A model generated the notes under the pieces. It saw only the letters and a program-made list of their open reading frames with translations, had not been told where the DNA came from and did no database searches. The translations under genes were made by a program, and so were the position numbers. DNA of 64,000 bases. It comes from Amyelois transitella (lineage: Eukaryota > Arthropoda > Insecta > Lepidoptera > Pyralidae). The DNA lies in NCBI RefSeq assembly GCF_032362555.1, contig NC_083513.1, positions 1,364,001-1,428,000 of the forward strand, written 5' to 3'. Below are positions 11,809 to 53,349 of this stretch, piece after piece (position 1 is the stretch's first letter; each line of letters begins with the position of its first letter).

Positions 11809-14147
11809 TTAATGTTTGTGAAGTTTCAACCAATCGCGTTTCGTGAGTTTCTCACCGTAATGCCTTTTAGCATGTCGCGTCACTTTACTTTTCTCATTAA
11901 ACCTTCTCTGGCAAATATCACATTTATATGGTTTCTCACCGGTATGAATTCTCGCGTGTCGTCTCAAATCGTTCAGCTGTTTAAAGGCGCGTTCACAAAC
12001 GTCGCATTTATAAGGTTTCTCCCCAGTGTGTGTGCGTAGATGATTTTTTAAAACTCCGCTATCTTTGAATCGACTTGAGCAAAATGTGCAGGCGTACGGT
12101 TTCTCACCTGTGTGAGTCCTCATGTGGCGGCCGAAGCTTGCTTTGGAGCATAAACGTTTGTGGCAGATATAGCATTCGGTTGCGAGTTTCTCGCGACCTC
12201 CATAATGTACAAACATGTGCGTTTCCAAGTGGCATTTTCGGCTGAAACGACGCTGACATTCGTTACACTCGAAGTACCTTTTATTGATATCAATTTTCTT
12301 TACTTCTTTTGTTGATGGGAAAGAGATGGAATCTGGAACATATATATCACATACATAATACATCAGCATTAAAATACATGTAAAATGCTAAATTAGCCTC
12401 TACAATAATTGTTACTAATAGTACACAGTTGTTATTTATAATTAACTTAAAGCATCATAACAGGCTAGGATTTCTTTGCTTATTAACTTTGATGACAGAA
12501 AATTAATAGTTTTTTTCAGTTGGGCCAATTATGTGTAGGCTGGATTTATATCAATCACAATTGCATAATACATTAAATTTACCTATCTCTCAATATAGCA
12601 TCATAGGTTTAAATTAAGATTTATATGTTTGTAGCCCAAGGCATTGTAAGTATTTATATGTTTCTCACCAACAGTATCAGAATGTTCCTGAACACTGAGT
12701 TTTCTTGTTTTTTGTCCCAACTTTCTGTCAATGAGCAATAACTCTTCAGTTTCATTATCTGGTAAATTTTCTGAAAATTAAAATAACTACCTATTTTAAT
12801 TTGAGTTCAGTCGATGACATTTATAAAAATTTTAAGTTGATTGATTTGAGAAACTGATTATTACCATGCCAGTTGTGGTCGTCTACTGTCTTCATATTAA
12901 CTTTATAACTCAAACATTCATGTTCTATTTGGATGCTTCTCATTACCTCATCATTTTGTAAATCCAACTTGCATTCGTCAGGTTTGTTTTCTGGCTCAGA
13001 TGTAATGTCTAGAAATTTACGTAAACTACATTTATAGAGAAAACAAGGTCTTTTAGATGGACTGATGATAAGAGTCCTTGGATGAGGCTTTTGCCAGTTT
13101 GTGGTAAATAGACAAAAATATATCCATAACTAAGATAATAGGGGCTATTTATTGGTTTGTTTTTATTGGATGTTATATATATATATAATGATGACCATAA
13201 TACAAAACATAAGAGCCAAGAGTCTCAGAAAAAAGACTGAAAGGCCACATTTATCTTACCATCAAATTTTTCAAACTCTATTTCCTGCTTTACAATGTCT
13301 TCTAACTCCTCAGGCTCACACTTAACCATATTTTCCAGGTTATCAAATTCGGTCTTCACCATAATAGGTGTATTGTATGAGGAGGTATCTACATAGTCAA
13401 TTGGAGTAATGCTCAACAGGTCACAGAGGCCTTTAGTCTTGCGTTTGACTAGCGTGAGTAGTTTCTTTGAACTTTTAGAAGCCTGGAAATATAACCACAG
13501 AAAACTAAATTTATGTGTGTACAAATCAGTTGTGATTTTACAGATTTATGATTGGAATAAGAATAAAGTGGAAAGACATTAAGTTTTATAGTAAATGATC
13601 AGGGTAAGTGAAGGAAAATAATCTTTTTTTGGCAAGGCAAGGGGGATGAGGAACCAAGAAAAAAGCCTCTGTCATTGTGAATTAATGATTTTTAATTTTC
13701 CAATTATCAATTCAATTACAAGACAATTGGGTGATTGAAACTTAATAAAAGTTTGTTAAAATACTTACATTTGGATGTCTCTCCAATATTCGAGCCAGCA
13801 TATTATCGGCTTTTGCAGATGTCAGCATTAATTTGTGACACTTTTTTAGCAGAGCACAGCACATATTGCAAACAAGTACTGGTCTCAAATCAAGAGTGTT
13901 TAACTACAAGCATATAACATAATATCTTAATATATTACACATAAAAAGAACGTGTTATTCTTTTAAAGCATGAAATATTCTTAGTAATTAATAAATATAA
14001 TGAAAAATAAGTAGGTAACTTCCGAACTTTGCTTACTGGAGTGTTAGTGATTTTTTCATAAACATCCTGCAAAGGGGTGTCGGCTATGGTTAACATAGGC
14101 AAGTCCGTAACCAGACATACTCTACACAAAACTGTATTTCGAGGCAT
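11809..14147 (-). CDS. ZAD-type C2H2 zinc-finger protein
   Basis: Complete six-exon gene on the minus strand: 14147-14037, 13903-13769, 13482-13260, 13008-12865, 12770-12669 and 12332-11809. Phases agree at every junction, giving 412 aa. The N-terminus is a ZAD (zinc-finger associated) domain: CRVC at residues 8-11, and the second pair in VLVCNMCCALLKKCHKLM in exon 2. The middle (exons 3-5) is acidic and low in structure (VKCEPEELEDIVKQEIEF). The last exon holds five C2H2 fingers, with TGEKPY linkers between the later ones (THTGEKPYACTFC, THTGEKPYKCDVC, IHTGEKPYKCDIC). ZAD proteins are the large insect family of DNA-binding regulators that dimerise through ZAD; the target is unknown. The start ATG immediately precedes the ZAD cysteines, as is usual. 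Confidence 0.9.
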
Positions 14148-16841: not shown

Positions 16842-19800
16842 TCATAGGAGCAACTCCTTCGGGAAGAGGTTCATTGACGCATAATCTTCTAGTACCTAGA
16901 ATAAAGAATAAAAAAATAGTGTGAAGGAGGCATTATTATGAAAAATTAGCTTCAGAAATGTAACACAAATTTGAATCTGTCATTAAGAAAACATCTTTGT
17001 TTTTTTTTTTTTTATATTATTATATTATATTGTCGAACTTCCGAAACTTGGGTTTCTTCTTTTAGACGATGAACTAGCAACCTGTCACTATTTGAATCTC
17101 AATTCCATCATTAAGCCATACAGCTAAAGTTTTGAACAGTTTTTTAAAACTATTGGCTTTGTTTGCCCTGTAAGGATAAAAGTCTTAATTTTATGAGCTT
17201 GTCCTTGTCCAGCTGTATTGTTGTAGTTGGTATTTAGAGTTACATTTTAATTAATATCAAAGCACATAAAATGATGTAGAAATTGTGGCAAAAAGTCTGA
17301 CTATATTACTCCATAATGCAAACTGTCAAGTATGTCAGTTATATTAAGACAACTACGTACCTCTAGCAAATTTTCCACGGTAGGTTTACCCACGTCCATG
17401 GTCATGACCTCCCTGACCTTCCCCCCGTCCAGGGAGACGTGTTTGTTGAGCAGCATCTCGTGCCCAGCGCTGGGCTCCAACGGGGAGTGTTCCAATTGAT
17501 ATTTCCTGCAGATGTCCGCCCAAGCGGTTAAGTGTTTGTCATTGGCTTCCTCTGCTACGCCTGATATGTCCGTCTGAAAAATAATTTAGATATATATTTT
17601 GATATTGCTTCTATTTAATTATGTATAACTATAATAAAACAACATCTCATGCTGTGATAGTTCAACAACTACCTTAGTCGCCTTTTACGATATCCATGGG
17701 AAAGAGATGGAGCGGTCCCATTCAAAGGTGCCGGGAACCACACGGCAAATTTCCCTCTCAACTCATGCATGTTTTAAAAATCAATCAAGGTAACCCTAAA
17801 TTTGTACGCCATTTTGGAAAAATACAGAGTGAAAAACATATTACAATGTACTATCATCACACCTGTATTTACAAAAAGAAATACAACTAAACTTACCTTA
17901 GCCAGCGTAGAGATGGCTGTACCATAATAATCATGGTTTATCTTGAAGATCTGGCTTACAAGCTCCGCAAGGCTACCCTAAAAAAAAAACAATAAAAGAA
18001 TGTTAAGAAATAAATGAAGCTTTATATTTTCAGTGACAAATTAATTTATGCATTTGGTGGTGTGAACAGCTCCTTTTAGTAGTAATAGAAATTTGTGACG
18101 TCAGCATCGTCCACCACATTGTGTATCTGGTGGTCGTACCGCGCCGTGAGAGCAGCCTCACTCACACTCGCATACACACAAGTTTCACACGGCGCCGTGT
18201 ATATCTCGAGTTTCCCGTTTCTATAGCCTCATGTCCATATATCATCAAAATATACAAACCTGTGTGCTATCGGCATCGTTCACCATATTATATATATCTC
18301 GTTTAGCGTCACCAAGCAGTGAGAGGAGCTACACACAACTACCACGGCGCCGTGTATACCTTGAGATCGTAACATCAACATATACAAACCTGTGTGCTAT
18401 CAACGTCGTCCACCACATTATATATCTCTCGTTTAGCGTCACCACGCAGTGAGAGCAGGCACACACAACTCCCACGGCGCCGTGTATACCTTGAGATCAA
18501 CATATACAGACCTGTGTGCTGTCAGCGTCGTCCACCACATTGTATATCTGGTGGTTGGCGTCCCCGCGCCGTGAGAGCAGCCACACACAACTACCACGGC
18601 GCCTTGTATACCTTTAGATCAACATACGCAGACCTGTGTGCTATTAGCGTCGTCCACCACATTGTATATCTGGTGGTTGGCGTCCCCGCGCCGTGACAGC
18701 AGCCACACACAACTACCACGGCGCCGTGTATACCTTTAGATCAACATATACAGACCTGTGTGCTGTCAGCGTCGTCCACCACATTGTATATCTGGTGGTT
18801 GGCGTCCCCGCGCCGTGACAGCAGCCACACACAACTACCACGGCGCCGTGTATACCTTTAGATCAACATATACAGACCTGTGTGCTGTTAGCGTCGTCCA
18901 CCACATTGTATATCTGGTGGTTGGCGTCCCCGCGCCGTGACAGCAGCCACACACAACTACCACGGCGCCGTGTATACCTTTAGATCAACATATACAGACC
19001 TGTGTGCTGTCAGCGTCGTCCACCACATTGTATATCTGGTGGTTGGCGTCCCCGCGCCGTGACAGCAGCCACACACAACTACCACGGCGCCGTGTATACC
19101 TTTAGATCAACATATACAGACCTGTGTGCTGTCAGCGTCGTCCACCACATTGTATATCTGGTGGTTGGCGTCCCCGCGCCGTGACAGCAGCCACACGGCG
19201 CGACACACGTCCCTGACGTGCGCCGTGTTCATCTTGAGATCAGCAGTCCACAGTAACTTCATAGTTTCGCCGAGATGCTTATATATACCGCCGTAAAGGA
19301 GGCGGGGGGCTGTTAACAAAAGAGTTGAATCAGCTTGCAATAGTGCCGTGTGGTTCTCAGCATTTTGGTGTGGGACAACTCTATTTCTTTCCAATGGAAT
19401 TTTTTAAAGGTAAGGAGTCGCGGGCTGTTAACAAAAGAGTTATTTATCAGCTTTCAATAGTGCCGTGTGGTTCTCAGCATTTTAGCGTGGGACAACTCTA
19501 TCTCTTTCCAATGGAATTTTTTAAAGGTAAGGAGTCGCGGGCTGTTAACAAAGAGTTATTTATCAGCTTCAATAGTGCCGTGTGGTTCTCAGCATTTTGG
19601 CATGGGACAACTCTATCTCTTTCCAATGGATTTTTTTAAAGGCGACCAAGGAATCAGTCATATGTTAAACATAGTTTGAATGAATAAAAAGATAATAGAA
19701 AAAACCTAGCATGCACGAACTGTTTCTTTTGCCGTGGATATTGTAAAAACATATCATATCAAGGGTAACCTTGGGATTCATTTCTTAAGCGATAGGTTAA

Positions 19801-22800
19801 TGACCTGTCACCACAATAGAATCTCAACTGCTTCATATATATATAATCACGACTATATCCCTTGCGGTGTAGACAGAGCCAACAGTCTTGAAAAAAATCA
19901 ATAGGGCACGTTCAGCTGTTTGGCTTAATGGTAAAATTGAGATTCAAGTTGTGACAGGTTGCTAGCCCATCGCTTAAAAGAAGAATCCCAAGTTTATAAG
20001 CCTATCCCTTAGTCGCCTTTTACGACATCCATGGGAACGAGATGGAGTGGTCCTATTCGTTTTTTTTATTGGTGCCGGGAACCACACGGCACTATAATAT
20101 TAGTATAGATATAAATAAAGCCTCATTTCAGAATTCTGTGAATATATTGACAAATATCGGCCAAGGTCAGATAACGCTGCATCATATCCTAAAATAATGC
20201 ACACTCGACGCGCTGATAAGAATTATTTCCTACATGAGATAATGTCACTTGCATAGGTACTGATATCAACTTAGTTGTTCACTTTGTTAAACCTATTTGA
20301 TCTATTCCTCAAACTTTGCTATTATATACTTTTATGAAACTCACACTGAAATCGATTTAGCCATACTCGAGAAATTCGCGAGTAAACTTCATTCATACAT
20401 ATAATCATGTCTATATTCTTGCGGGATAGACAGACAGGGCCAACAGTTTTGGAAAGACTGATAGGCCAAGTTCAGCTGTTTGGCGTTATAGAATTGAAAT
20501 TCATATAGTGACAGTCACCTAAAATAAAAATTACAAGTTTATAAGCATATCCCTTAGTCGCCTTTTACGACATCTTTACTTATTTGTTGGAAGTAAGTAA
20601 CTTTGTAACGGTTACTCACTGAGACTCCTCCGGTCCCCGACTCCGTACACTATGGCGGGCCTAATTATAGTGTAGTTCAGTTCCGGTTCCAATTTCTTCA
20701 GTTCTTGTTCCACTTTGGCCTTCATGGTGGCTTCTATCGTCCAGGGGTTGACAGGATCACTTTCTCTGTGTGGCTGAAATGAAAATATTTTTAGTCTTAC
20801 AACTCTTATTACTAGGAAAATTCTTATTATTTTTAAAATAGAGAACTCAACAAACTGATGCACTTATATGTCAATTATTATTTTGGGTATTCTTCGGAAT
20901 TTATCACGTCTATATTCTTTGCGGGGTAGACAGAGCCAACAGTCTTAAAAAAGACTGGAAGGCCATTCAGCTGTATAGATTAATGATAATATGTAATTAA
21001 AAAAAAAGATGTATTGAGGAGAAAACTAATAACATATTCCTTAGCTGGTTGCTATCCGCCTTTGACCACGATCCAGAAAAGTGACAAGTCCGGTAAATAC
21101 CCAGTTCAGCTTCTTTCTGACCAGAGAAACCGTAATGGGAACCTAGCTTGGAGCATGTGTTGGTCTTGGGGCATCTTTGCTTGTCTCCAGTCGCACCCTT
21201 CGCCGCTATGCTTATTACTAGGTACACTAGCTGTGCCCGCAACTTCGTCCGCGTGGAATAGTTATTTTGGGCATCATTGAAGCCTTCAAGGATGAATATT
21301 CTTCCCCGATTTTTTCACATTTTCGTTTATTTCTTTGCTCCTTATAGTTTCAGCGTGATGTTATATAGCCTAAAGCCTTCCTCAACAAATGGTCTATTCA
21401 ACGCAAAAATAATTTTTCAAATCGAACCAGTAGTTCTTGAGATTAGCGCGTTCAAACAAACAAACAAATTCTTCAGCTTTATAATATTAGTATAGAAGAT
21501 TTGGTACTTTTTCCTACTTTGTCAATTCTGGAGCGTCTTCAGTTTTGATGCCAATCGCACGCGTACCTTATAGCTTTCACGACGTCAAACCATGATTGGT
21601 ATAAAAGATTATTAACTATGTCAAAATTCAAAAACAAACATCACTTAATAACTGTCATGTCTTTTGGTTTCACAACATTGGTTGACGTCGTATAAATTAC
21701 TTTAAAGAAAGTTTACTATAGAATAGATTTATTTTCAAAATTGGATACAAGGTATCACTTATTGACGTCACATAACTTAAATCTAATTATAACTACTACC
21801 GCTTCCAAAGCGCATGTGTAGAAGAAGCGGCGGAACAAACTACACTGCAGCATTTTCATCGGACGTCAATTTACAAATATAGATCTCTTAAATCCAAAAC
21901 GTGGACGAATTCCCATTGTCTACATTAAAAAACATAATGAATGTAGAACTTATTATGTCAATAACTGCCTTACAAACTCACCTTTTCCTTACTGTTCATA
22001 TATCCGCTTGAGATCTCAACCAATCTGGGCACCTTCAACTTGGCACACTGCTTCGCCACGTTGAAGCTCAGGGTATATATACCCTCAGAGTACACGGCTT
22101 CTGTCTGTCCCACCCGGGTTTCTCCTGCGCAATTGACGACCAGACCCCAAGGCTCGTCAGACCCTGGATCGAGTGCGCTGGCGCATGACGCTGGAAAAAT
22201 ATATTTTAGGCTAATAAACTGACAATAAGTTTATCAATATTTATTAGGGTTGGGCAGCCAATTACTTACATACATACATATGGTCACGTCTATATCCCTT
22301 GCGGGGTAGACAGAGCCAATAGACTTGAAAAGACTGAATGGCCACGTTCAGCTATTTGGCTTAATGATATAATTGAGATTCAAATAGTGACAGGTTACTA
22401 GCCCATCGCCTAAAAAATAATCCAAAGATGTTTGTAAGCCTATCCCTTAGTCGCCTTTTACGACATCCATGGGAAAGAGATGGAGTGGTAGGTACTATTC
22501 TTTTTTGTATTGGTGCCGGGAACCACACGGCACCGGCAGCCAATTAGAGTTAAAAAAATAGGTTAAGGTATAGCGGGTTGACTGGAGACCTAAATATAAA
22601 AGCCCCGTATTTCAGTATTTCAGGACATTCGCTCAAGACTTGCAGTTGAAATATAATATATCAACGACGACGAACGAAAATAAATATTTCCAATGAGTCT
22701 AAAAGATAATTGCTGAAGCGCTAACATGGAATTTCATAGATTTTAAAAGCATAATTCGGTAATAATTAACGTTATTAATACCAAATTACGTGTTGTATTT

Positions 22801-25290
22801 TATAAATCCTACTAATAAGTATTATAAATGCGAAAGTTTGTGAGTATGTCAGTATGGATGTTTGTTACTCTTTCACGCAAAAACTACTGAACCGATTACG
22901 ATAAAATTTGGTATGTAGGTGGCTGAAGACCCAGAATAACATATAGGCTACTATTTATCATGGAGTTCCCGTGGGATTGATAGGGTTACCATGCGGACGA
23001 AGTCACGGGCGGCCTCAAGTGTCAAAATCGTTACGCAGATATGACGATCCAATAATGCCCGCGCCATACCCTAATGCGCTAAGAATGTTAACGGCGAGAT
23101 GCAATTTAAATCGCTGGACCTCCTCTTATAAGTCTTAAAATGATGAACCCCCAACACGTTAGCTTCGCAAACGAGTTATGTGTAAAATATTAACAATTCC
23201 TTTCCACCGAGGTGTCAAGGCTCTCAAATTAGCATGCCGCGCTACACGCGCGGCATGCTAATTTGAGACAACAATGACTGTTGATTACAAAGCATAGGCA
23301 TTGAATATCCATACTATAACTTGATATATTAGTGCCAGCTCTCGGCATCATTAAAAAAAAATGAATAAGACCACCCCATCTCAATCCGATGGATGTCGTA
23401 AAGGGCGACTAAAGTAGAGGCTTATAAACTAGGGATTCGTCTTTTAGGCGATGGATTAGCAAACTATCACAACTTGAATCTCAATTCTATCGTTAAGCCA
23501 AACAGCTGAACGTGGCATATCAGTTTTTCAAAGACTGTTGGCTCTGTCTATCCCACAAAGGATATAGACGTGACTATATGTATGTAGTATTTATATTATT
23601 TGTAACTTCATCATTATATCTTTTCTAGAAATCAAGAAGTTTCTTACACATTTAGTAGTTCTGAATACTGAGAAGCATATAACAGTAGTTTTCATTAAAA
23701 AATAAAACATCTGTTTTCATGAGATTTGCAGTAAAAGGCTATGTGGTGTGAAGTGAAACTATTTTATAATAACAAAGTGTAGAATAAACACCAGTGATTC
23801 ATCCGCCGTGATAAGCTATCACAATTACTGGAGCAAAGGCAGGATACATAATGTTATGTCAATATCACGTTAACCTGAACTTTTAATTTAATACCTTTAA
23901 GTCTCAGAAATAAAGTACAAATTGCATTTTATCAAATTGTTAATTTATTTTGCCCTTCAGTGTAAACTAGTTTTATTTTTAATTTCAACCTGTTACTATT
24001 TGAATCAATTCTACAATTAAGCCAAACAGTCTTTTTAAGACTGTTAGCTCTGTCTACCTCACAAAGGATATATGTAGACATACATATTTTTAATTTTAAA
24101 TGGTTAAATTCAAATTGCAAAATAAGTCGTGGTTTCCAGAAAGTAAGTAGAGAAAAAAACAATAACAGTAGAAGAATTTCATCAAATCGATTGTGACTAT
24201 TTACTATAATCTTCTTTCTTTATGAATACACACTTGACAGAGTGGTTGTAGTTGTCATGTGCTACGTAGAAAATAGACTGAAGAAAAAAATATATAAGAC
24301 ATAACTAGTTATCAATATTTGTTAATCACAAATTCAATACAATCAGTACTCATTGCTCAGACACAAAGTTGAAATGAAATATAATTTTTTGATATTTATT
24401 TCTATATACTATTATAAAATATAGTAATTAAGTTTTATATTTCTTTTTATTATTTAATAAATAACTATTAACTTTTTCTGATGTTTTTCCTGGTTTCAAC
24501 CTCAATTTTCTGGAGATAAAGCTAGAGTATTATGACCATGATAGGATTGGGTGAGTAGAATTCTTCAGGGTTTTTATAAAATCGCCAGGGTCTTATGACC
24601 ATGATAGGATTGGGTGAGTAGAATTATTCAGGGTTTTTTTTTATAAATTTTTCACTGTGTGTAAAATCAGTTAATAGTATTTATATTTATTTTGCAGTCA
24701 CTGAAATTCAAGGCAAACTGAATTTCAGTATAACTGGCAAAAGTGGACCGAAGTATGTAGAATTTTGATTATATTCTCTTCTGAATTGTAAGGCTTCAAT
24801 CAGTAATTTAATTAGGAAACATGTACTCATTGCATTAACCTATTGGATTTCTTATATCATTTTTAGTGAGAGGTATGTATGTACTTACTAGGATTTATTA
24901 GGTTGGCGCTCTTGTATTCCACGCGGGGGTCTTCGAAAACTTTCGAATGATTTGGATTGAGGAATGCCAACTGAGGTGGGGTTTTATCCACAACACGAAC
25001 TCCGCTGACCAAGTCATTGCTTATAAGATACTCCACCAGGTTTCGCCCGATGAAGCCACACCCTGGAAAAATCTAGGTGTCAAAAAGACCCCGAAAAACA
25101 CTAGGTCATACGATGACTAAGATCAAAACCGTTACAAAATATTGAATTTTCACCGACACTTTAATAATATGTATATATGGTTGGATAACTAGGATGTGAG
25201 ATATTTATTGGAAAAATTATGTTTCTAATAGGAATTACCTCCCAGAACAGCAACTCGTGGTTTTGAATTATCGCCGGCACAATCAGACAT
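16842..25290 (-). CDS. Extended SDR / NAD-dependent epimerase-dehydratase-like protein
   Basis: Complete eight-exon gene on the minus strand: 25290-25239, 25062-24889, 22190-21982, 20773-20620, 19309-19122, 17977-17897, 17573-17361 and 16895-16842 (TGA). All borders are GT-AG and in phase; 1125 nt, 374 aa. The N-terminus is a Rossmann fold with the glycine motif split by intron 1 (VAVLGGCGFIGRNL, residues ~13-26) and an NAD-type Asp at the end of beta-2 (VRVVDK). Further extended-SDR landmarks follow: VVNCAGETRVG, VEISSGY, IIRPAIVYGVGDRRS, NTAHVRDVCRAVWLL and IYNVVDDADST. No signal peptide or membrane segment is visible, so it is probably cytosolic. The position expected for the catalytic YxxxK reads TMKAK, so activity is uncertain. 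Substrate unknown. Exon 5 is flanked by tandem arrays described separately. Confidence 0.88.
18092..19121 (-). repeat. Tandem array of partial exon-5 copies with splice donor (122-bp unit)
   Basis: About eight head-to-tail units lie in intron 5 of the SDR gene and abut the real exon 5. The five nearest units have a period of 122 bp (minus-strand donor-like ACAG|GTCTG sites near 18511, 18633, 18755, 18877 and 18999, matching the true donor at 19120-19121). Each unit holds the 3' part of the exon (coding NHQIYNVVDDADSTQ), its donor, ~10 bp of intron, and a shortened, diverged copy of the middle of the exon. Units farther from the exon (18092-18500) are more diverged and some lack the donor. Only the copy at 19122-19309 has the full exon. 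Confidence 0.9.
19310..19660. repeat. Three-unit tandem array carrying the exon-5 acceptor
   Basis: Three units of about 116 bp (GCCGTGTGGTTCTCAGC at 19345, 19462 and 19577) lie immediately upstream, in transcript terms, of SDR exon 5. Successive units are joined by GGGCTGTTAACAAAGAG-type sequence, which on the minus strand is the same TTGTTAACAG acceptor used by exon 5 at 19310-19311. The rest of the unit is a diverged head of the R1 family. Confidence 0.85.
19845..20092 (-). repeat. R1 interspersed repeat
   Basis: TAATCACGACTATATCCCTT to CGGGAACCACACGGC in the SDR gene, upstream (in transcript terms) of exon 5. Confidence 0.75.
20395..20580 (-). repeat. R1 repeat, truncated
   Basis: Tail and middle present (ATAATCATGTCTATATTCTT to CGCCTTTTACGACATC); head missing. 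Ends 40 bp before the donor of SDR exon 4. Confidence 0.65.
21227..21497 (-). mobile_element. Helitron-like element, second family
   Basis: Plus strand begins CTAGCTGTGCCCGCAACTTC and ends CTTTATAATATTAGTATAGA; read on the minus strand it starts TCTATACTAATATTATAAAG and ends CTAG. In an intron of the SDR gene. Confidence 0.6.
21600..21945 (+). repeat. TGACGTCA-carrying interspersed repeat
   Basis: Longest copy of a family with CACAACATTGGTTGACGTCG, TATCACTTATTGACGTCACA, ACTACCGCTTCCAAAGCGC and AAACTACACTGCAGCATTTTC. Other copies: about 1650-1728 (minus), 4350-4510, 48866-49003, 54092-54165 and 58020-58195 (minus). Confidence 0.6.
22266..22532 (-). repeat. R1 interspersed repeat
   Basis: Full-length copy from the (CATA)n tail to GGGAACCACACGGC, 70 bp upstream (in transcript terms) of SDR exon 3. 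Confidence 0.8.
22807..23020 (+). mobile_element. Helitron-like element, diverged copy
   Basis: Same family as at 5119 but with the longer ATAAATGCGAAAGTTTGTGAG head and a damaged end (CTCAAGT in place of CTCTAGT). In intron 3 of the SDR gene. Confidence 0.65.
23222..23268. repeat. Perfect hairpin, 21-bp arms, 5-nt loop
   Basis: The left arm starts TCTCAAATTAGCATGCCG at 23222; loop TACAC at 23243-23247; the right arm ends at 23268 with no mismatch. The inner half of each arm is GC-rich, unlike the AT-rich surroundings. In intron 2 of the SDR gene. Confidence 0.9.
23360..23585 (+). repeat. R1 interspersed repeat
   Basis: AATAAGACCACCCCATCTC to GGATATAGACGTGACTATATG, plus orientation, head shortened. 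Confidence 0.7.
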
Positions 25291-26081: not shown

Positions 26082-29000
26082 TCAACTGCCGTGAACATTT
26101 CCAGAAGGCAGGATGATCGCCACCACAAGTCCCGCTGTGAAAAAGATATTTTTTTTTAATTTTCCGTCAGTTACAGAAACATCATTCAAACATATGTAAT
26201 ATTATCACGGAATAGTATAATACTTTCCTATTATGACTAGTTTCACGGTAAAGAAGTAAAAAAATGTAACTTACATACAACAAGTACTACGTAGCCCATG
26301 ATCATAGGCGTGCAATGTTCAGCCAGGAGTTTGGCAATCAGCTGGACGCTCATGAAACCGAACCCTCGTGCCACCACCACCGACAGACAAGTAGCCATGC
26401 CCCTAAAATTAAAATATATTTTTTTAAATAGTTTAGTAGTTAGTAAGAAGTTAATTCAATTCCAACCTCAACCAAGTGAGCCAACAATCTTGAAAAGACT
26501 GATAGGCCAAGTTCAGCAGTTTGCCTTTATGATGAATTGACATTCAAATAGTGACAGGTAGCTAGCCCATCGCCCAAAAGGACCCCAAGTTTATAATCTC
26601 ATCCCTTAGTCGCCTTTTACGACATCCATGGGAATGAGACCGTGTGGTCCTATTCTTTTTTTTTATTAGTGCCAGGAACCACACGGCACACCTTCATTTT
26701 GGGTTTATTCATTAAAAAATAATATAAGTAAATAAGTAATTATCTAAATCTTTAGGTATACCTTATACGGATAAAATTACCCACCTCAAATGCGTTGGGT
26801 TCAACTCCACCAGATACGTGTTCACATTGCCCAAAATCAGAGCTACATGGAGGAACAAATAGAAAAACACTATGCTCAAAATAGGCAGCTTTATAAACAG
26901 CAGTAATATCCCTGAAGCCGCAGACACGGTGAAGACTAACAGCGTGGTCCATCTCTTGCCGATAGGACCGACGAGGAAGGACAAAGCTATGGTGAGGAAA
27001 CCAGTGGCGGCGGAGTAACACATGACTGCGTAGAGGGTCAAGGGTTGGATGATGTCGTCACAGTTCGTGTAAGTCTGAAACAAGTGAAGAATGATGAGAA
27101 GACTTTATGAATTATTTTCAAAAGAGTTATCTTAATACCTACCTACGTCTTGTGATTATTTGAATTATATATCTACTTCAGGACATGTATTCATACCCGG
27201 GTCGTTTTACGTGTTTCATGAACACGAACATTCCAATCCCATTTTTCGCGCCAAAAACTTTCGCTTTTTTTTCACTTCATAATACTCGTAAAATGACGTC
27301 GCTCGCCCCATGCTACGGGGACTGAATCAGTGACAAAAAGGACACTGTATTTTGAATATATTAAATATGGAGTTGACATTTTTTTTTTGTAGAAATTGCG
27401 TTCGTTGACATTAAAAATGGCAAATAGCGGATTTTATGTTAAACAGCTGTATAAGGGCTTACAATTTTGACAGAAGCAATAGTTTTATAACAGGTTAGGA
27501 TTTTTTGCAAGTTGTTTACAGTTCATAGAAATCTATTCACCATATTTGTGGAACTGGCAGCTCGGCTGGCCACCTGGCAGAAGGTCTGCTCGTCTTTATC
27601 ACCGCCGTCGAAATACGCATTGGTTATTGTTGGCACCCACATCGTAAATCCGGTGGATCTGATAAGAAAGCCAAATTAATTCATCCATACTTCTTAATAA
27701 AAATGTCTGCGTTTGGTTACGAATAGCACCTTTTAAAAGAAAATGGCACAGAGTTTTCAAAGTTATGTTCATTAGTTTGAATACCTACTAACCGATGCTC
27801 TTACGTTTAGTTAAACATCTCACAACGTAGAACCTGCATATTCAGGCAACTGGATGTGTAACCATAGATCTAAAACGGGTTAGGTTTATCTGCAAAGTTT
27901 GCGGAGTCGTGTAAAAACATGACTCACCCAATACAGGATTCATGGTCAAAGGCATACCTCGTGCTCCTGTCCAGAGAGGTGACAATGCAATCGGGAATAG
28001 GCCAGGGCCAGGAGGAAGAAGAAGCAATTTGGTACATAAATAGATTTTATTGTAAGCTTCATTTTTATTTAGAGCGAAGCCCTGGGTTTAAGCTTGTGGT
28101 AAAATTAATGGACAGCATTAACAATCTGGTTCGACGAATAAAGTTTTTTTGAAAAATAAATGGATAGCACTTAACGGCCCATTAACCTTTATGGTTTAAT
28201 GATGGAATTGAGATTCAAAAGTGATAAGATTGACTACAAGAAAATCCCAAGTTTATTTAAGCCTTTCCCTTTCGCCTTTTACTACATCTATGGGAAAGAT
28301 ATGGAGTGGTCCAATTCTAAAATGCCACGCGAAACGTGATTGTTAATGACATCATATTGTGCAATACAATATTCGTGTGTTTAAACAAACCCTAACTGTT
28401 TGTTGAGCTTATCATCATGGTATTAAATTAATAAGTCCACTTCGTGTAAAGATGGCTTAGCTGTAGTAAAAAAAGACGGTAACTGAGAAGTGGCTAGCTA
28501 AAGATTACTATTACGACATCTTACGTCATGTACGCGCAGAGCAGTAGATAGTAAAGTTTGAGGGAGTTCTTCAGGAGCGGCGGCTTAAAAAGTGGAGCTG
28601 TCTGGTTCCAGATTTTCTGTATGACGGAATTGTGGCTAACATCCGGCCTTGGCGCGTCGTCTAAGTAGACCTTTGTTATCTGGAAATTATGAGAACGAGT
28701 CTTGTATATTTTAGTTGATTTTACTCCTCAGCTTCAGTAGACCAGCATCGTGGTTTTTAACCATTTTTTTTTTCAACGTGACCTTTCAGTCTTTTTTGGA
28801 CTGTTGGCACTGTCTACCGTGTCAAAATGTACGTTTATTTGCTAACTTTCAGGTAATTTCACGGGAAGTTACTTATGATAATGTTATAGAAATGGCAGTC
28901 GCTTGATAAAAAACCTCGTCGAATCATTAAAAAGACTGATAGGCCACGTTCAGCTGTTTAGCTTAATGATAGAATTGAGATTCAAATAGTGTTTATAAGC

Positions 29001-32000
29001 CTATTCAGTAGTCGCCTTTTACGACATCTATGGGAACGAGATGGAGTGATCTTATTATTTTTTATTGACGCTTGGAACTACACGACAGGCTACTAATTAC
29101 AATAAAGGTACTACTTACAGGAAAAGTATTAATCTTGCTTCCTGTATTCAAACTAAACATGGATGCCAAGACTTCAATAGCTTCGTCATCTCTACCCTTG
29201 CTGAGCAGAAATTTAGGGCTCTCATGAAGACAGGCCATTCCCAAGACCCCGATGATTCCAGGCAGACAGATGATCTGCATGAGCAGCCTCCAGGGCCGGT
29301 AATCCAGGGATAAGAAGGAGATGTGAGCGCGGAAGGATAGATGGAAGACTGGTAAAGCAAAAGCTGTGAAAAGAAATGAATTAAGGATCGTTTATTTAGA
29401 AAGTAACGAACCAATGCTCAATGGATAAGATGTTAGGATGTTTTTTTTAGTTTCGCTGAAATATTTAATACATGCTTCTATGTGCGAACTTCGAGTAAGT
29501 GGCATGAAAGTAAGTACTAATGCATGTGGGTCATTACAAGTGGAAAGATGTAGGTACTCTTTGACCATCTTCTGGGTATGAACCGTGATGTATATAGAGA
29601 ACAGCGTCTTGTCCTCAAAGATTTTTCGGCTTTGAAATCTAAATATATTTTAATAGAAAAAAATATGAACTTGCTGTTTAAAATTGGGCTAATAATGGAA
29701 GTTTAATTACCGCATATGATGAGCTGAACGAACATGGTGGTGCTGGCCATGAGGAACATGAACCTGCTCCGAAGCCTCCGTGGGGTACTCTCTCCAATCA
29801 GCACGAAGGCTGCTGCGTTTGCTGATGATGTACTGTAATCCATATACTCATTGATAAGCATTAAAACTAATAACGTGACTCAGACGGAATAGATTAATTG
29901 TTACATGGACCGCTATTAAAACCAGGAAGTTGTACGCTTCTGAGCGAAATACCTTGGCTTCTACAACATCGTCCTAAGAACAAAATCATCATCAGCATTG
30001 TTGGTAGCGTATTGTGATAGCTCGCATGCACCTGGAACTGGACTTATGACCAGAATCTTGGCGAAGCTTGGTCAGGTTTTGAGTTAGTTTTCTAAACAAC
30101 GAAAGCACCGATACTAGTAAGATGAAAATTGTTATCTTCATATCTTTAGGCCCGGTTCCGTGAGGAAGAGTCCGTGATGACCTATGACGAACATGATGGA
30201 TAAGTTTATTAATTTTTATACACGGATTGTCTTCCGTCTGATTTTGGCAACCCTGTAGGAGAACCTTAACCTATGAAAGAGTGTAATTATCGTCGTATAT
30301 AGTATCTGTTCACATTAAAACTTTTTTACATACATGCATACGAGTACACACATAAAATCACGCCTCTTTCCCGGAGGGGTAGGCAGAGACTACCTCTTCC
30401 CACTTGCCACGATCTCTGCATACTTCCTTCGCTTCATTCACATTCATAACTCTCTTCATGCAAGCTCGGCGATTTCGGGTACTTTTGACCTAACCCTTTA
30501 CCAGGATGTCCTTAATTTGATCGAGATACGTTCGTCTAGGTCTTCCCACTCCACACCCACTCTTAAAACTTGTTTAAACGGGTTAAAATATTATGCTACT
30601 TACAAGCTTGCCGAAATGAACTTGAGAATTGCTAAGCTGGTATACCCCGGAGCCATGGTAGCCGCCAAGTTGAAACTGGCCCCGACTGGCATCGCTATTA
30701 GAAGGGTCTTCCGCCTTCCCAGGGTGTCCGCGGCCAGACCCCACACGTATGAAGAGAGCATCACCCCTGGACCATACACACATTAGGATAGGAATTTGCT
30801 GAGTTTCTGGATAAGTTTGTTGCTATTTCTAGTATACTTTTTTCTATTTACAAAATAATACTTTAAATTTCTTAAGAGGCCATTTAGAGACGCTACATAA
30901 CGCTTCTTTCACTCGGATAATTTCAAAAGAGGATGAAGAGAAAAATATATAACGATAGCATAAGTAACGTGACCACTCCATTACTCTCCCATGGATGTCG
31001 TAAAAGGCGACTAAGGGGTAGGCTTATAAACTTGGGATTCTTCTTTTAGGCGATGGGCTAGCAACCCGTCACTATTTGAATCTCAATTCTATCTTAAAGC
31101 CAAATAGCTGAACGTGGCCTACATCAGTCTTCTGGGTCTGTTGGCTCTGTCTTCTCCGCAAGGGATATAGACGTGATTATATGTATGTATATATGCATAA
31201 ATAACGATAGCATTACTATTACAAATATCCGAATAATGGCACCACACTCCTCACAGATATTTATAAATCCGCAGTGAGTGTTAATATTCAGATTCCTGCA
31301 GGCCTACCATCAACAATTACAGAGCGATTCAAATGCAGAGCAATTCAGTTAAGGAACCTAAAATGAATCGCGTTAAATTCATACCACCATTTTACTAAAA
31401 CAAAGTCGAAATTGAATCGTTAGTGAACGAATGAAATCAAATAAACTTAGATCGTGATCGTTGCGTATAACGATCGATGCGTAATTTTGCGTAATTTTTT
31501 AATATGCGTACTTTTTTCTGCGTAAGTTATACATATATCTCAATTCAAATCTCAATTCTATCATTAAGCCAAATAGCTGAACGTGGCCATTCAGTCTTTT
31601 CAAGACTATAGACGTGACCATATGTATGTATGTATACATACATATATTCGCAAGAAAAGTTAGTGAAATTAAATAAAAACTCACCAATTAGAGGTACAGC
31701 AGACAAAACACCCTGTTGTGTAGTGGTTAACTCCATGTCGCAACCCACGACTGGCAGTACCACGGAGAACCCAAAGATGTCCAGGTACATCGCCAGGATG
31801 AGGAGGCAGCAGGTAGTCAGCATCAGCAAGTTGTATTTGCCAAAACCTTTGTTATAATACAGAAAACTCAGCTTATTAGTGATAAACGATGCTCTAAGCT
31901 AGAATTATATATAAACGAAGAGAGCCAGTTGAAATCTAGAATTTCTGCCGCTGGCAACAGGTGAGAAATAATATTTTCATACATATATGATAACGTCTTC

Positions 32001-36140: not shown

Positions 36141-39100
36141 TCATACTGGTTCGTGAGTTTCGTTTTCGGTCGGTTCAGCTGGGATCTCCTTGGCTGGGCT
36201 GTTGTTTTTCTTCTTGTTTGGAAGGGTTATGCAGAAAGCGGCGTTTACTGTAAAATAAAGAGATAGTTCATACAAAGGTTTAGGCGATCGATCTACCTAT
36301 TATCCTACTAGTTAGTATTCTTTTAGTGACGGATACGTCACGTGGGACAAACAGTACTGCCGATAAAATTGGCACATAAAATAATTTATAATCTTTTCCA
36401 TGCTATGTCGAGACTTTTTCAGTTTTTAGTTAGCATCTATCTGAAAATCTTGGTCAAATGTTTTGTATGACACCTATATACTGTTTAGCTTGAGTTGAGC
36501 TTCGAAATTAACAACGAAGGATAGTATCGAATTGATATATTATATTTCGCCAACTACTGGGCCAAAGATATATTTTACGTACCCTATGTTCTTCTTTATA
36601 CTCTGCAATACATGTATGTAAATTACATTGACATTAGCTGAGTAGTTTTGACGTGAAAAACGAACAAAAAATACATTATCACTTATAATACTAGAGGCCG
36701 CCCGCGACTTCGTCCGCATGGAAACCCTATCAATCGCGCGGGAACTCCGGGATATAAAGTAGCCTATATGTTATTCCAGGTCTTCAGCTACCTACAGACC
36801 AAATTTCATTGTAATCGATTCAGAAGTTTTTGCGTGAAAGAGTAACAAACATCCATACTGACATATTGATAAACTTTCGCATTTATAATACTAGAGGCCG
36901 CCCGCGACTTCGTCCGCATGGAAACCCTATCAATCCCGCGGGAACTCTGGGATAAAAAGTAGCCTATGTGTTATTCTGGGTCTTCAGCTACCTACATACC
37001 AAATTTCATGGTAATCGGTTCAGTAGTTTTTGTGTGAAAGAGTAACAAACATCCATACAAACTTTCGCCTTTATAATAGTAGTAGGATTAGTAGGATTAG
37101 TATGCACATAAAAAAAAACAAACCAATTGAAGTGGAAGAAATAGAAAGAACAAGATATCGTACCAATAAGAATTCCCCCGAACAGATAGAAGCTGAGTCC
37201 GCAGTTGGACTGCAGGAACACGCCGATGAGGTTGGAGCCCACCATGGAGCCGGCGCGCCCCATCATCATGCACAGGCAGACCGCCATCGCCCTGGAAACA
37301 ATATGTTATGTTATAGGTTTGGAGAGAGAGAGATTCTCCAGGGTTTGTAGTTTAGAATGATACTCCGTTTCAGAAGGTGAGAATGGAATGCTTTATTTAC
37401 AAAAGTTGGACATATTTATATAAAACTATTTACAAAGGAAAATGCAAGGACGAATCAAAAATACGGAATTATTACCAATGATAAAGAGAAGTTATTTTTA
37501 ACAAATCAGAAATATGGAATTATAACCAATAGTGTGAGCGTATTTACAATAGGAAATCTATCTAAAAGTTTTTGAGGATAATAAAATGGATTTGCATAGA
37601 TTTCTGAGAATTTTGCATTGCTGTCTCTTGAGTCTGGATAGCTCCGTCTCGTTTCCGCTACACGTGTCGAGCTCGAGTTTCTGTGACGCCCGGTGCGGCC
37701 GCAGGCGCGCCGAGGGCGCCACGTGCGGTGTGCACGCGATGTTTGTTGGGTGAAACTTGCTTGCGTATAAAACCGTCTTGCTGCTTGCTCCCCGCCTCAG
37801 TGTGAATTTGAACTTGCGGCGTGAGGTCGCGCTCGTGAAGCTCGCGCGAAGTGCAGTGTGTGCGTCGAACTCTTGAGTTTGTTGTTTCGGACGGAGATCC
37901 GATGGACAATAATGCAGTGTGGAGAATTGGCGTGTGAAGATGCTGATGCTGCCTGGAAGAACTGCTGATGCACGATGTGTGGCATGTCCATGTGCACGCG
38001 CTCACAAACAGTTCTTTTCAGAACTAGCTTCTTCTGGTTTCTGGGCAACGAAGTCGGCATGATATTAAAGTGCTTGATTTGTTTTATTCATCTCTTATAT
38101 ATATATGTATTATATCTATTATATCCTGGTAATGTTTTGGTATTATGATGGTAAGTATTATGAAGGTAATGGTTGTGCTCGGTAATGGGTAAGGTAATCT
38201 TGTTGGTAAGTATGTTGGTAGCCACATAGGTAATAACAATTTCTTGTCTACGAAATAACAAGAGATTTTCAAAATCAAGGAGCACGAGCTGAACACAAAC
38301 GAAATAATTTGAATCATTTATGTTTAGCAAAAACTGAAAACAGGAGCGTTGTCGAGTCGAATGCTCGAAGCGCGTTTGAGGCTCGTAGTTTGGTTTAACC
38401 AACAAGAACTTTGGGTCGGGTCGTTTTTGTAGACCCACCTGATCTTCTTTTGATTAAATGCGCATATTTTACGGTTATAGGGAATAAACTTAGTTCTTTA
38501 CTTAACATTCAAAAGAATCAAAGGCTAAATCATTAAATTTAGATATAGTGACAGGGTGTACAACCTTCACTTAAAATCGATTTAAAACCCAGTGTACCGT
38601 TGCTGTCTAAGATCAGGATGAGCTTCTTCTCGATCAATTTACAATGACCTCAAATATTCGTATAAAAAGTATAAATTCACCTGTATTTCGTAGGGAACAG
38701 TTCCACAGCCACCGCATTCATCAAACCAATGCAAGCTCCTGACATTTGGAAGATGGCGAATAGAATCACAGCTAATTGAGTATTAGCCGCAAAATGAGCT
38801 CCAATCCCACACAATCCAGTGGCACTGAGAACCACGATCAGGATAAGCTTCTTTCCGATGAAGTCGACCAGGAATCCCACGATGATGTACATGGAACTGA
38901 AGACGAGGCCGATGTAGATGGATTGTTCGAATGTCGCTGTGTTCATAGTGTCGTCACAACCAACCTGAAAAATTTTAACATGATGTAAAAGTTAGTAAAT
39001 AAATGGGGAACAGTTTAAACAATAAATAAGTATATAATGGTTGTAATGTTACTAAATAAGTATAAACTCGTTTTGTTCAGTTCGGAATATTTGCGATACT

Positions 39101-49034: not shown

Positions 49035-49155
49035 TATTCAATTCTATCATTAAGCCAAATAGCTGAACGTGGCCATTCAGTCTTTTTAAGACATCCATGG
49101 GAAAGAGATGGAGTGGTCCTATTCTTTTTTGTATTGGTGCCGGGAACCACACGGG
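49035..49155. repeat. Chimeric R1 fragment
   Basis: The middle of a plus copy (ATTCTATCATTAAGCCAAAT ... CATTCAGTC) switches at about 49090 into the head of a minus copy (ACATCCATGGGAAAGAGATG ... AACCACACGG), with both outer parts missing. Confidence 0.65.
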
Positions 49156-49388
49156 GTATTATAAACCACCACGTATTATAAAATATAATACCGTTCATTC
49201 AGAAATAAACTCTATTCGAGCTCAATCTTTGTAATTATAGTTTCCGATATTGTTATGATTCATAGTGAGAATGGGATACAACGTAATTTTAATGATAATT
49301 TATTGATAACATAATAACCATATTGTGCAACATGCGGGTGATCAAAGTACATGATAATTATTTGTATAACACATACATACATACATGC

Positions 49389-49830
49389 GCCGTGTGGTTC
49401 CCGGCACCAATAGAAAAAAAGAATAGGACCACTCCATCTCTCTCCCATGGATGTCGTAAAAGGCGCCTAAGGGGTAGACTTATAAACTAGGGATTATTTT
49501 AGGCGATGGGCTAGCAACCTGTCACTATTTGAATTTCAATTTTATCTTAAAGCCAAATAGCTGAACGTGGCCTATCTGTCTTTTCAAGACTGTGGGCTCT
49601 GTCTACTCCACAAGGGATATAGACGTGACCATATGTATATATAGTCACGTCTTTATGCCTTACGGGGTATGAAGAGTCAACAGTTTTGAAAAGATTGAAA
49701 TGATTCAGCTGTAAGGCTTTATGATGGAATTGAGATTCAAATAGTGACAGGTTGCTGGCCCATTGCCTACATACAAGAGGTATCTCAAGTTTCCAAGCCT
49801 ATTATGGGAAGGATATGGAGGGAGTGGAGA
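49389..49830. repeat. Inverted pair of R1 copies
   Basis: Plus copy (49389-49640) and minus copy (49648-49830) meet at their TATATGTATA tails, as at 3394-3793. Confidence 0.75.
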
Positions 49831-49966
49831 CTCTTACCATCGGCTGCCTACTTCCTACTAGCTAAAGTCCATTTTGCATCCTCACCACTCTGGAGAGTAG
49901 CCGGGGCATACCTTTGACCATGGATCCTGGATTTAGTGTAGTCAATTTTTATACTATTATTACTAT

Positions 49967-50142
49967 TAGGCTTGCAAACTTGGGATTCTTTTTCAGGCGA
50001 TGGGCTAGCAACCTGTCACTATTTGAATCTCAATTCTATCATTAAGCCAAATAGCTGAACGTGGCCATTCAGTCTTTTCAAGACTGTTGGCTCTGTCTAC
50101 CCCGCAAGGGATATAGACGTGACCATATGTATGTATGTATTT
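49967..50142 (+). repeat. R1 repeat, head missing
   Basis: TAGGCTTGCAAACTTGGGAT to GACCATATGTATGTATG, close to the R1 consensus. Confidence 0.75.
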
Positions 50143-50159
50143 ATGTAATTTTTATACAA

Positions 50160-50425
50160 AGCGACTCCTATCTGACCTCCGCAACTTTTGCAGGAGAACC
50201 TAATCCGTTTGGATCGATCATGGTTACGCATCCAGTCGCCTGAATGTGCATCATGTTTCCTCGCGACGTTTTCCGTCACCGTAAGAGCATCACTTAGTAT
50301 TCAATCTAATGTAAATTACTTCGAAAATGGTCATGGACACAAGTTGGATTTGAACGTATGCCTTAATGCGCATCACGAATTTTAACCGTGCACTTCACCT
50401 ATTCGATCACCGTTCTTACGACTGC
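50160..50425 (-). mobile_element. tRNA-like SINE, second family, long copy
   Basis: On the plus strand GACTCCTATCTGACCTCCGC, GGTTACGCATCCAGTCGCC, CCTCGCGACGTTTTCCGTCA, then GTTGGATTTGAAC and the reversed head near 50410. Related 3' parts occur at 5596-5790, 27780-28030, 54165-54240 and 60915-61200. Confidence 0.55.
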
Positions 50426-50451
50426 CTGTGCCATTATATTTTATGGCCAAT

Positions 50452-50713
50452 ACATACATACATACATATAATCACGTCTATATCCCTTGCGGGGTAGACA
50501 GAGCCAACAGTCTAGTAAAAACTGATAGGCCACGTTCAACTATTTGGCTTTAAGAAAGAATTTCAATTCAAATAGTGACAGATTGCTAGCCCATCGACTA
50601 AAAGAAGAATCCCAAGTGTATAAGCCTACCCCTTAGTCGCCTTTTACGACATCCATGAGAGAGAGATGGAGTGGTCATATTCTTTTTTCTTTTGGTGCCG
50701 GGAACCACACGGC
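50452..50713 (-). repeat. R1 repeat
   Basis: Full-length copy, (CATA)n tail to GGGAACCACACGGCA. Confidence 0.8.
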
Positions 50714-51005
50714 AATTTTATGACCAATTACAGCATTATTAGTATACTTCAGTGTTAATTTACAGCTCATGTCATCTCTACTCGGAAAGTTTATAATCTC
50801 AAACATAAAATTTCCGTGTTGTTTTTATGTTAGTCTTAACACTTTTAAGCTATGCTTATACATCGTTTTATAATCACTTCTTTCGTTATAAATTATTACT
50901 GCTAAGATTTCCACTTCCTAAGTAAGTATAAATAAAGAGTTTATCAGAGAAAACAGTGAGATAATCATACCAACTAATATTATAAACGCGATAGTAAGTT
51001 TCTTG

Positions 51006-51256
51006 CGTGGTTCCCGGCACCAATACAAAAAAGAATAGGACCACTCCATCTCATTCCCATGGATGTCGTAAAAGGTGACTAAGGCATAGGCTTACAAACT
51101 TGGGATTCTTTTTAGGCGATGGGCTAGCAACCTGTCACTATTTGAATCTCAATTCTATCATTAAGCCAAACAGCTGAACGTGGCCATTCAGTCTTCAAGA
51201 CTGTTGGCTCAGTCTACTCCGCAAGGGATTAGACATGACCATATGTATGTATGTGT
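51006..51256 (+). repeat. R1 repeat
   Basis: GTGGTTCCCGGCACCAATAC to GACCATATGTATGTATG, near consensus. Confidence 0.8.
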
Positions 51257-53349
51257 GTATAATTAAGAGTCTGGACAAGGACATAGAGTTCTTTTCATCC
51301 CGGTAAAAACTACACTTAGTTTCGTGGAATTCAGGAAAATCCTGCGCATGTAGGTAGAGGTAATTCGCGTGGGCGAGTAGCGGGTGAAGATAATTTGAAT
51401 AAGTAAATCGACTCAATGCCTTCATGCCCGCAATAGGTATGTAAATTTTAACATGAAATGTATATGAAAAAGTATTGAACCAATTTTGGTAAGTAAAACG
51501 GTACAGTCACGACCGATACCAATAATAAAAATGAATTATTCCGGGTCCAAATAAAATCTGATAACCCTTTTCACCTGTTTGATTTCATCATTCATAAGTT
51601 TCATCATCATTCGTATACATACATACGTATAACGTTTTTATTCTTTACGGGGCAGACAGAGCCAAATTACAAAATTTGTAGGCCACATTTTACTTAATGG
51701 AGAATTGAAAATCCAAAGCCAAATATCTTTTTTTAGATGATTGTGCTTCTAACAACATCGATGATGGTTTTGGTTGATCAAATTCATAATATTTTATTTG
51801 AATTCAAAATTTTTATTCATTAAATTGTCAATAATAATTGTTAATAATAATTAATAATAATGGTCATAGGCAGACCCCGGGCTCTTTACCAGACACTACA
51901 GGACGCACCCAGGGCTACCACCAGGATGATGATCACACACATTAAGAGGATTATGGTTGTTTTTTTGGGTTGGGTACATATAGTGTAAGATTTCATTAAA
52001 GTTTCATAATGATTGTTCACTTCATAATTACATTATCTCAATGTCGATAACCCCTGTTTATTCGTTGCAATGTGAATATTTGATGCCATGCTCGATTTTG
52101 GGTGACGCCATAGGAAATTGAACAATGTAAGATTATTAGCTTTTTACCCGCAACTTCGCTCGCGTGAATTTAGCGCCATGTACATGCGCGTATTTAGCGT
52201 CATTCAAAAAAGAATACAGGTTTTTAGCTAATCCCGCGGGAACTAAAGTATTGTTTACTTTTATTTTTCCATACTTTTATTAAACAGTTATTTGACACAA
52301 TATATAGTATTTTTAGGTTCTGTATAATATCTATCGTCTGCCCGTCTTCCCGACGCTCTCTTTGCCAGCAAAAAGGTGTACACTGTATGCTTCTCCAGAC
52401 TCCTTATTGTATGTTCGCAATTTCGAGAAGATTCGTTCAGTAGGTTAACGCGGATAATAATAAAAGTAGAACAATTGATTTCTTTGAGGAACGTAAATCT
52501 TTTTTCTAAGTATACCTACAATCAATAGATCTTTTTCAGAATTCTATGATGAAAGAGGAGGTTCACATATGATGGCTTCAACCGGTAAACGTTTTTCTTT
52601 TCTCAATATATAAGTTCATTGGCCGTAAATGATAGATGTTTAGTGATATTTTCTGGTAGATCTTTGTGGGATTGGTACTTACGTTCGTGACGAAACATAA
52701 GACTCATAATTGTTATTGCATTTGTAATTATAGTAAATAATTTTAAAATAACAAAATTTATTAACAGCACATCAGTGATAAAAAAAATTAAAGGTTATAT
52801 TTACCGAGCTGTTTCAGGAAATGTTAAACATTACCATTCCCTCTTTTTTCTGTTTTTTAGTTTTTTTTAATTTCTTGTGAATTTCTATAGTCCAATTTCT
52901 TCAAAGTAAATATCTGAAATGTATGTAGTATATCGGTAGTTTATCAAATTTGGAGCCTACGTCTGATAATGTGATCGGGGAAACCTTTTATATTAAAGTT
53001 AGAAAAACATTTAACATTATTATTTAGTTCAGAGAATCATCATTGCCTTTCAAAATGGTCATGCTACCAGCCTTCTGGGCACACTCCCGCAGGTTGTTGC
53101 AATTTGTAAATTTAATATTAGTTTGTAATCATTAGGTTATTTAGATATTGTATCACTTTTTTTTTGTATAAATAAATGTGGAAACAAAATTGTATTGTGG
53201 GAATATTATGTCAGATGAATCCAAAGAGGAGTTCGCTACCTACCATTACCTACCATTTATTTAACGGGAAAAGTTTTTAAAACATAAATAAGTACTTGGG
53301 TCCTAAAACACACGAACCTTAATATAAAATTTTCATATTTTATACTCAC

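Follow-up and report, generated by a model that had tools for sequence, protein, structure and literature searches.

A coding exon on the minus strand of the 64-kb window (the whole stretch of DNA analysed) lies between two tandem arrays made of copies of its own edges, splice sites included. The question raised by this locus is how these copies originated, and what so many additional donors and acceptors may do to the transcript. Only 2 of the 32 TRF rows in the window combine a period above 100 with more than two copies, and both of them abut or overlap this exon (19122-19309). A third long-period row is found at 36683-37058, with a 200-bp unit, 1.9 copies and 93% matches.

The gene and its array-flanked exon

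Six consecutive exons were modelled on the minus strand, each of them preceded by AG and followed by GT:

25062-24889, minus strand, modelled exon 1 of 6
22190-21982, minus strand, modelled exon 2 of 6
20773-20620, minus strand, modelled exon 3 of 6
19309-19122, minus strand, array-flanked coding exon, fourth of the six modelled, 188 nt
17977-17897, minus strand, modelled exon 5 of 6
17573-17361, minus strand, modelled exon 6 of 6

The joined frame of these exons encodes 339 residues with no stop codon and represents a partial product, as the ends of the gene lie outside the traced model. An earlier note on this DNA had presented the array-flanked exon as exon 5; the exon is real and has clean AG/GT borders, but its position is the fourth in the model used here. 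The 339-residue product matches Pfam Epimerase (PF01370) with an E-value of 8.3e-16 and 58.6 bits (cut-off 20.9), and the sole solved relative retrieved by sequence at E <=0.001 is 1vl0_A, an RmlD-type reductase (E 0.00012). Judged by its sequence, the gene looks like an SDR or NAD-dependent epimerase-like gene, and it seems to resemble a moth or butterfly dehydrogenase. No relatives of 160 residues of the protein were found in viral and prokaryote contig collections, a negative that carries little weight because of the organisms these collections cover.

The other five exons showed no overlapping close direct repeats in a plus-strand self-comparison that covered repeats less than 3 kb apart, with the low-complexity filter on and pairs within 18050-19700 excluded. 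Two smaller repeats were observed in the same gene. One is a 21-bp unit in 2.0 copies (TRF, 85% matches) at 20676-20716, within the coding exon 20773-20620. The other consists of two 55-bp direct copies at 24521-24638, 93% alike and with starts 63 bp apart, which are located in the intron downstream of exon 25062-24889 and do not touch that exon.

Elsewhere in the window, a direct repeat of ~390 bp (212-589 and 831-1214, 90% alike, starts ~620 bp apart) and, clustered at 49037-51260, several direct repeats that overlap one another and are 73-98% alike, were recorded. The minus strand also holds a 192-residue open frame with several C2H2 zinc-finger motifs at 11812-12387, and open frames resembling exons of a sugar-transporter type membrane protein at 26755-29391, both recognised by eye.

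Anatomy and probable growth of the two arrays

The downstream array (TRF row 18244-19196, period 122, 7.7 copies) joins the exon directly, with no break, and comprises eight units at 19121-18087 arranged head to tail, as in a minisatellite or VNTR. In the direction of transcription, units 1-6 measure 122 nt each, unit 7 measures 130 nt and unit 8 ~173 nt. Every unit starts with GT and units 1-7 finish with CACACAG, and the motif CACACAG/GT (the slash marks the junction) is present at the exon border and at the ends of units 1-7, eight junctions in all, and absent at the end of unit 8. The array thereby holds seven decoy donors, in units ending at 19000, 18878, 18756, 18634, 18512, 18390 and 18260. 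According to the gene model, all units are included in a single intron, 19121-17978, whose acceptor lies outside the array.

19000-19121, minus strand, unit 1: GT and 120 nt of exon-derived sequence; the decoy donor that follows is CAG/GTCTGTAT; final 75 nt the same as those of the exon
18878-18999, minus strand, unit 2: decoy donor; one difference from the last 75 nt of the exon
18756-18877, minus strand, unit 3: decoy donor; same sequence as unit 1
18634-18755, minus strand, unit 4: weaker decoy donor CAG/GTCTGCGT; one change in common with unit 2
18512-18633, minus strand, unit 5: decoy donor; at site 12 of its final 75 nt it has C, unlike the exon
18390-18511, minus strand, unit 6: decoy donor CAG/GTTTGTAT; 13 of 75 sites differ from the exon
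18260-18389, minus strand, unit 7: 8-nt insertion; decoy donor CAG/GTTTGTAT; 19 of 75 sites differ from the exon
18087-18259, minus strand, unit 8: most distal; first half the most altered; no terminal donor; low edge set by eye

Much of this agrees with the earlier note, which had described ~122-bp units abutting the 3' side of the exon, the presence of the exon's 3' coding part in the near units, near-identity of the five nearest ones, and at least seven decoy donors. Its low edge of 18092 is better placed near 18087, and its view of the units as copies of the 3' part of the exon can be extended to their first halves. By alignment, a downstream unit is exon material nearly throughout, made up of GT and of exon positions 57-188 with 12 nt missing. 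The first half is collinear with exon positions 57-107, and for each of units 1-7 the score was reached in 0 of 2000 dinucleotide shuffles, tests of which fewer than seven are independent, the first halves of units 1-4 being identical. In unit 8, 10 of 2000 shuffles reached the score, and its first half is not clearly exon-like. An origin of the first half as original intron or as a foreign insert is ruled out by the collinearity with the exon. The 12 missing nucleotides had also been considered as a single deletion of an exon hairpin loop, a candidate that was dropped, as a full-length alignment with several small gaps explains the unit equally well.

When compared with the last 75 nt of the exon, units 1-7 show 0, 1, 0, 2, 1, 13 and 19 differences. 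The growth of divergence with distance proposed earlier therefore stands as far as units 6 and 7 and does not extend to unit 8. In the 3' half of this unit, mismatches to the exon number 9 or 11 in 71 aligned sites (depending on gap cost, and with four further exon sites unpaired), which makes it closer to the exon than either unit 6 or unit 7. Divergence is thus no simple clock.

The possibility that the number of units was inflated or misjoined during assembly was also considered. Units 1 and 3 are identical, which is the usual spot for a misassembly, but units 4-8 differ from one another and from unit 1, the edges of the array are unique and the array spans ~1 kb, which leaves an artefact very improbable.

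The distribution of differences along the units is uneven. Unit 1 differs from unit 6 at 2 of the first 47 nt and at 13 of the last 75 nt (Fisher p 0.045), and from unit 7 at 2 of 47 and 19 of 75 (Fisher p 0.0026), two tests that are not independent because units 6 and 7 are related (they group together with a support of 0.986). On alignment evidence, units 1-5 are chimeric, combining the present last 75 nt of the exon with a first half like that of the older units 6 and 7, so that the breakpoint falls inside the coding exon. The sequence GTGTG is found at the site of the join in both the exon and unit 6. In the first half, 3 of 47 sites separate unit 5 from unit 1, more than the 2 of 47 that separate unit 6 from it. 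The most exon-like units, 1-5, adjoin the exon, as expected from the growth at the exon border that the earlier note had suggested. The identity of units 1 and 3, together with the change common to units 2 and 4, suggests a later duplication of two units together, a pattern from which instability of the array is plausible.

Some exon changes may also have been recorded in the array. At site 12 of the last 75 nt, a silent third position, units 5-8 have C while the exon and units 1-4 have G, as if unit 5 retained an earlier state of the exon; the C of unit 8 was obtained in every alignment, including four extra ones. At site 60, also silent, T appears in units 7 and 8 only and C elsewhere, which conflicts with the grouping of units 6 and 7, and several changes are common to these two units and absent from unit 8. 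At site 24, units 6 and 7 have T, and unit 8 has T in the MAFFT alignment (which took this unit minus its last 13 nt), and G in three and no paired site in one of the four later alignments that included those nucleotides. An ordered ladder of three silent exon changes at sites 12, 24 and 60 was for this reason retained only in part, site 12 being firm.

Third codon positions account for 9 of the 13 differences between unit 6 and the exon (p 0.009), an excess that decay after leaving the exon explains only partly. Since the last 75 nt of unit 6 are also free of stops in the exon frame, units 6-8 could be regarded as relics of alternative or mutually exclusive exons that once were coding. This is barely credible: the AGs at unit borders are not preceded by a pyrimidine tract (AGs inside the units were judged by eye), the first 56 nt of the exon are missing from the units, unit 7 has a stop inside its last 75 nt, and reading through from the exon to any decoy donor meets a stop. 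On the same data, the units were also rejected as alternative exons.

The upstream array (TRF row 19307-19642, period 117, 2.9 copies) contains three acceptors ending in TTGTTAACAG, 115-117 bp apart, one real and two decoy. The G of the acceptor AG is at 19310 in the real site and at 19425 and 19542 in the others, whose exon sides are at 19424 and 19541. Both the ~116-bp array of three units abutting the exon and the count of about two decoy acceptors had been anticipated correctly.

19310-19408, minus strand, repeat fragment and real acceptor TTGTTAACAG ahead of the exon
19409-19523, minus strand, upstream array, nearer decoy unit: acceptor AG at 19426-19425, and ~16 nt resembling the first bases of the exon
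19524-19640, minus strand, upstream array, outermost decoy unit: acceptor AG at 19543-19542, continuing into further interspersed repeat at 19641

Each upstream unit opens with a diverged piece of an interspersed repeat, continues with 32-34 nt that contain the acceptor (and a branch-like CTGAT motif, identified by eye) and closes with ~16 nt like the exon start. The repeat origin of the first part is supported by six comparisons, in each of which 0 of 2000 shuffles reached the score. The outermost copy extends into further repeat sequence (CCTTGGTCGCC), and the inner copies begin with TAAAA or TTTAAAA. The exon-like start of the decoy acceptor units reads CCCGCGACTCCTTAC, which, apart from the absence of a C and a T, fits a past exon start that would have differed from the present one by two silent changes. 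Other copies of an interspersed repeat were observed on both sides of the exon, at 17672-17747, 20007-20091, 19837-20092 and 22274-22533; the longer pair is 87% alike, and most of the upstream unit derives from this family.

Splice sites within the copies

Donor strength was expressed as the pairing energy with the 5' end of U1. The real donor, CAG/GTCTGTAT, pairs at -8.8 kcal/mol. Four of the seven decoy donors equal this value, two are better (-9.4 kcal/mol) and one is worse (-5.8 kcal/mol), so the "working-looking" donors of the earlier description do, in six of seven cases, show U1 pairing at least equal to that of the real donor. Among the five other modelled donors of the gene, two are stronger than the real donor of this exon and three weaker. 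Ranking of the 474 GT sites of this strand within 17300-25100 places the real donor in the top ten, where six of the ten are decoys. Moreover, two of the decoys, at 19000 and 18756, share every base with the real donor from 75 nt upstream to 110 nt downstream. The decoy acceptors match the sequence of the real acceptor upstream of the exon over 17 nt (the nearer) and 11 nt (the farther), and 12 and 11 pyrimidines are found in the 20 nt preceding their AGs, compared with 13 in the real one.

Normal joining of the exons gives no stop, while a stop appears at index 245 of the partial protein with any of the seven decoy donors and at index 192 with either decoy acceptor. As all nine decoys lead to stops, they would, by this model, be useless to the protein and could only reduce its output.

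It might be proposed that such a reduction is the role of the array. The decoys would then compete with the real sites as a brake on expression, diverting to nonsense-mediated decay a fraction of transcripts set by the number of units. The U1 pairing of six of the seven decoy donors, the long identity of those at 19000 and 18756 with the real one, and the early stops in all nine decoy products are consistent with this proposal. Against it, no conservation of the donor junction above the rest of the unit was found: across units 1-7, 5 of 27 junction columns vary versus 28 of 122 overall (p 0.37), and the longest invariant run is 11 (p 0.89). An expression brake is regarded as unlikely.

Because units 1-7 each start with GT and end with AG, the junctions could also form a ladder of dual-specific or recursive sites, by which the intron would be removed stepwise and stray units spliced out as small introns, with the same final mRNA by any stepwise path. 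The CACACAG/GT junctions, eight of eight, have the format given for the UBC repeats in PMC10809524. However, the junction AGs look poor as acceptors, with 8 pyrimidines in the 20 nt upstream at all eight junctions versus 12-18 of 20 at six real acceptors, and a second AG occurs within the same 20 nt at all eight (although this is also the case for two of the six real acceptors). In addition, the unit length of 122 nt cannot be divided by 3, and the intron has its true acceptor beyond the array. Stepwise removal has, according to these data, only a small chance of being the explanation.

Probable origin of the copies and comparison with known systems

The explanation that we consider probable is that the edges of the exon were copied outward by repeated tandem duplications across the exon-intron boundaries, and that the copies are neutral or slightly harmful. 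In an early step, a segment covering the final ~132 nt of the exon plus its GT would have been duplicated downstream and then decayed. The array would later have been renewed when a 122-bp block, formed by the terminal 75 nt of the exon together with the first half of an older unit, was duplicated again beside the exon. On the upstream side, a block running from interspersed repeat through the acceptor to ~16 nt inside the exon may have been duplicated twice. By the gene model the copies lie in introns, and most of them hold splice sites of the same quality as the real ones.

With identical donors, cells favour the donor closest to the acceptor of the exon. The spliceosome would accordingly be expected to take the pair of splice sites that bounds the shortest exon, that is, the exon-proximal ones, while stray use of a decoy would introduce an early stop and the transcript would probably be lost. 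The array is then most likely an accident that enlarged the introns.

Random placement of two arrays of the same lengths within the window put one at each end of a single one of the six modelled exons in 0.0097% of 2,000,000 trials, a figure that is post hoc, as the finding was chosen for this very feature. By random placement, independent duplications at each end of the same exon would be improbable, and the account given here may therefore miss a shared cause; no common cause of the two arrays was found. A quite improbable variant is that the locus is a self-renewing repeat, with sequence exchanged between the coding end and the decoys and with the number of units setting the amount of productive mRNA, through competition among identical sites plus decay or through stepwise AG/GT splicing. 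If this copy-number dial existed, the level of productive mRNA would follow the number of units.

The gene offers a natural competition assay for the roles of position and exon length in the choice among identical splice sites, given that two decoy donors equal the real one over 185 nt, four more pair with U1 at least as well, and a working protein needs the first. On the favoured account, the array also captures the staged growth of an intron out of exon sequence, and indicates that a coding exon can belong to an expanding repeat with its frame kept.

Several known systems share part of these features. Tandem alternative splice sites (TASS) sit a few nucleotides apart. They have in common with this locus several donors or acceptors of similar strength by one exon border, whereas the moth copies are spaced at 115-130 nt and take in the sequence around the sites. 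Intronic minisatellites or VNTRs are a known class of head-to-tail repeats, and the ~120-bp units, the near-identity of those near the exon and the two-unit pattern are all reminiscent of them; in contrast, the moth array takes in the coding end of the exon and its donor. Mutually exclusive exons have an acceptor of their own and an open frame in each unit, a combination not seen in the units of this array, whose internal AGs were judged by eye. Among the matches listed in one open-licence library, going by title and the start of the abstract, none deals with an exon that has arrays of its own splice sites on either side.

Human UBC repeats carry AGGT at the borders of their units and are spliced as dual-specific sites (PMC10809524). 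Both arrays are tandem, of coding origin and with AGGT at the unit boundaries (eight of eight here). The UBC units are coding, 228 nt long and in frame, whereas those of the moth are intronic, 122 nt long, with stops and with AGs that look poor as acceptors (PMC10809524). Moreover, the length of a UBC-type intron is a multiple of the unit, while the moth intron 19121-17978 is 1144 nt long and has its acceptor outside the array.

The closest parallels may be found in introns born by duplication. New introns can arise via duplication of exonic AGGT segments (PMC3443670), and in a potato RdRp gene a tandem duplication crossing an intron-exon boundary creates splice sites, the exon copies turning intronic (PMC4974935). 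The duplicated exonic AGGT sequence, the extra splice sites and the conversion of exon copies into intron are common to those cases and to the locus described here (PMC3443670, PMC4974935). The difference is that no separate new intron is seen in the gene model of the moth, where it is the existing intron that would have grown repeatedly, and at both edges of one exon.
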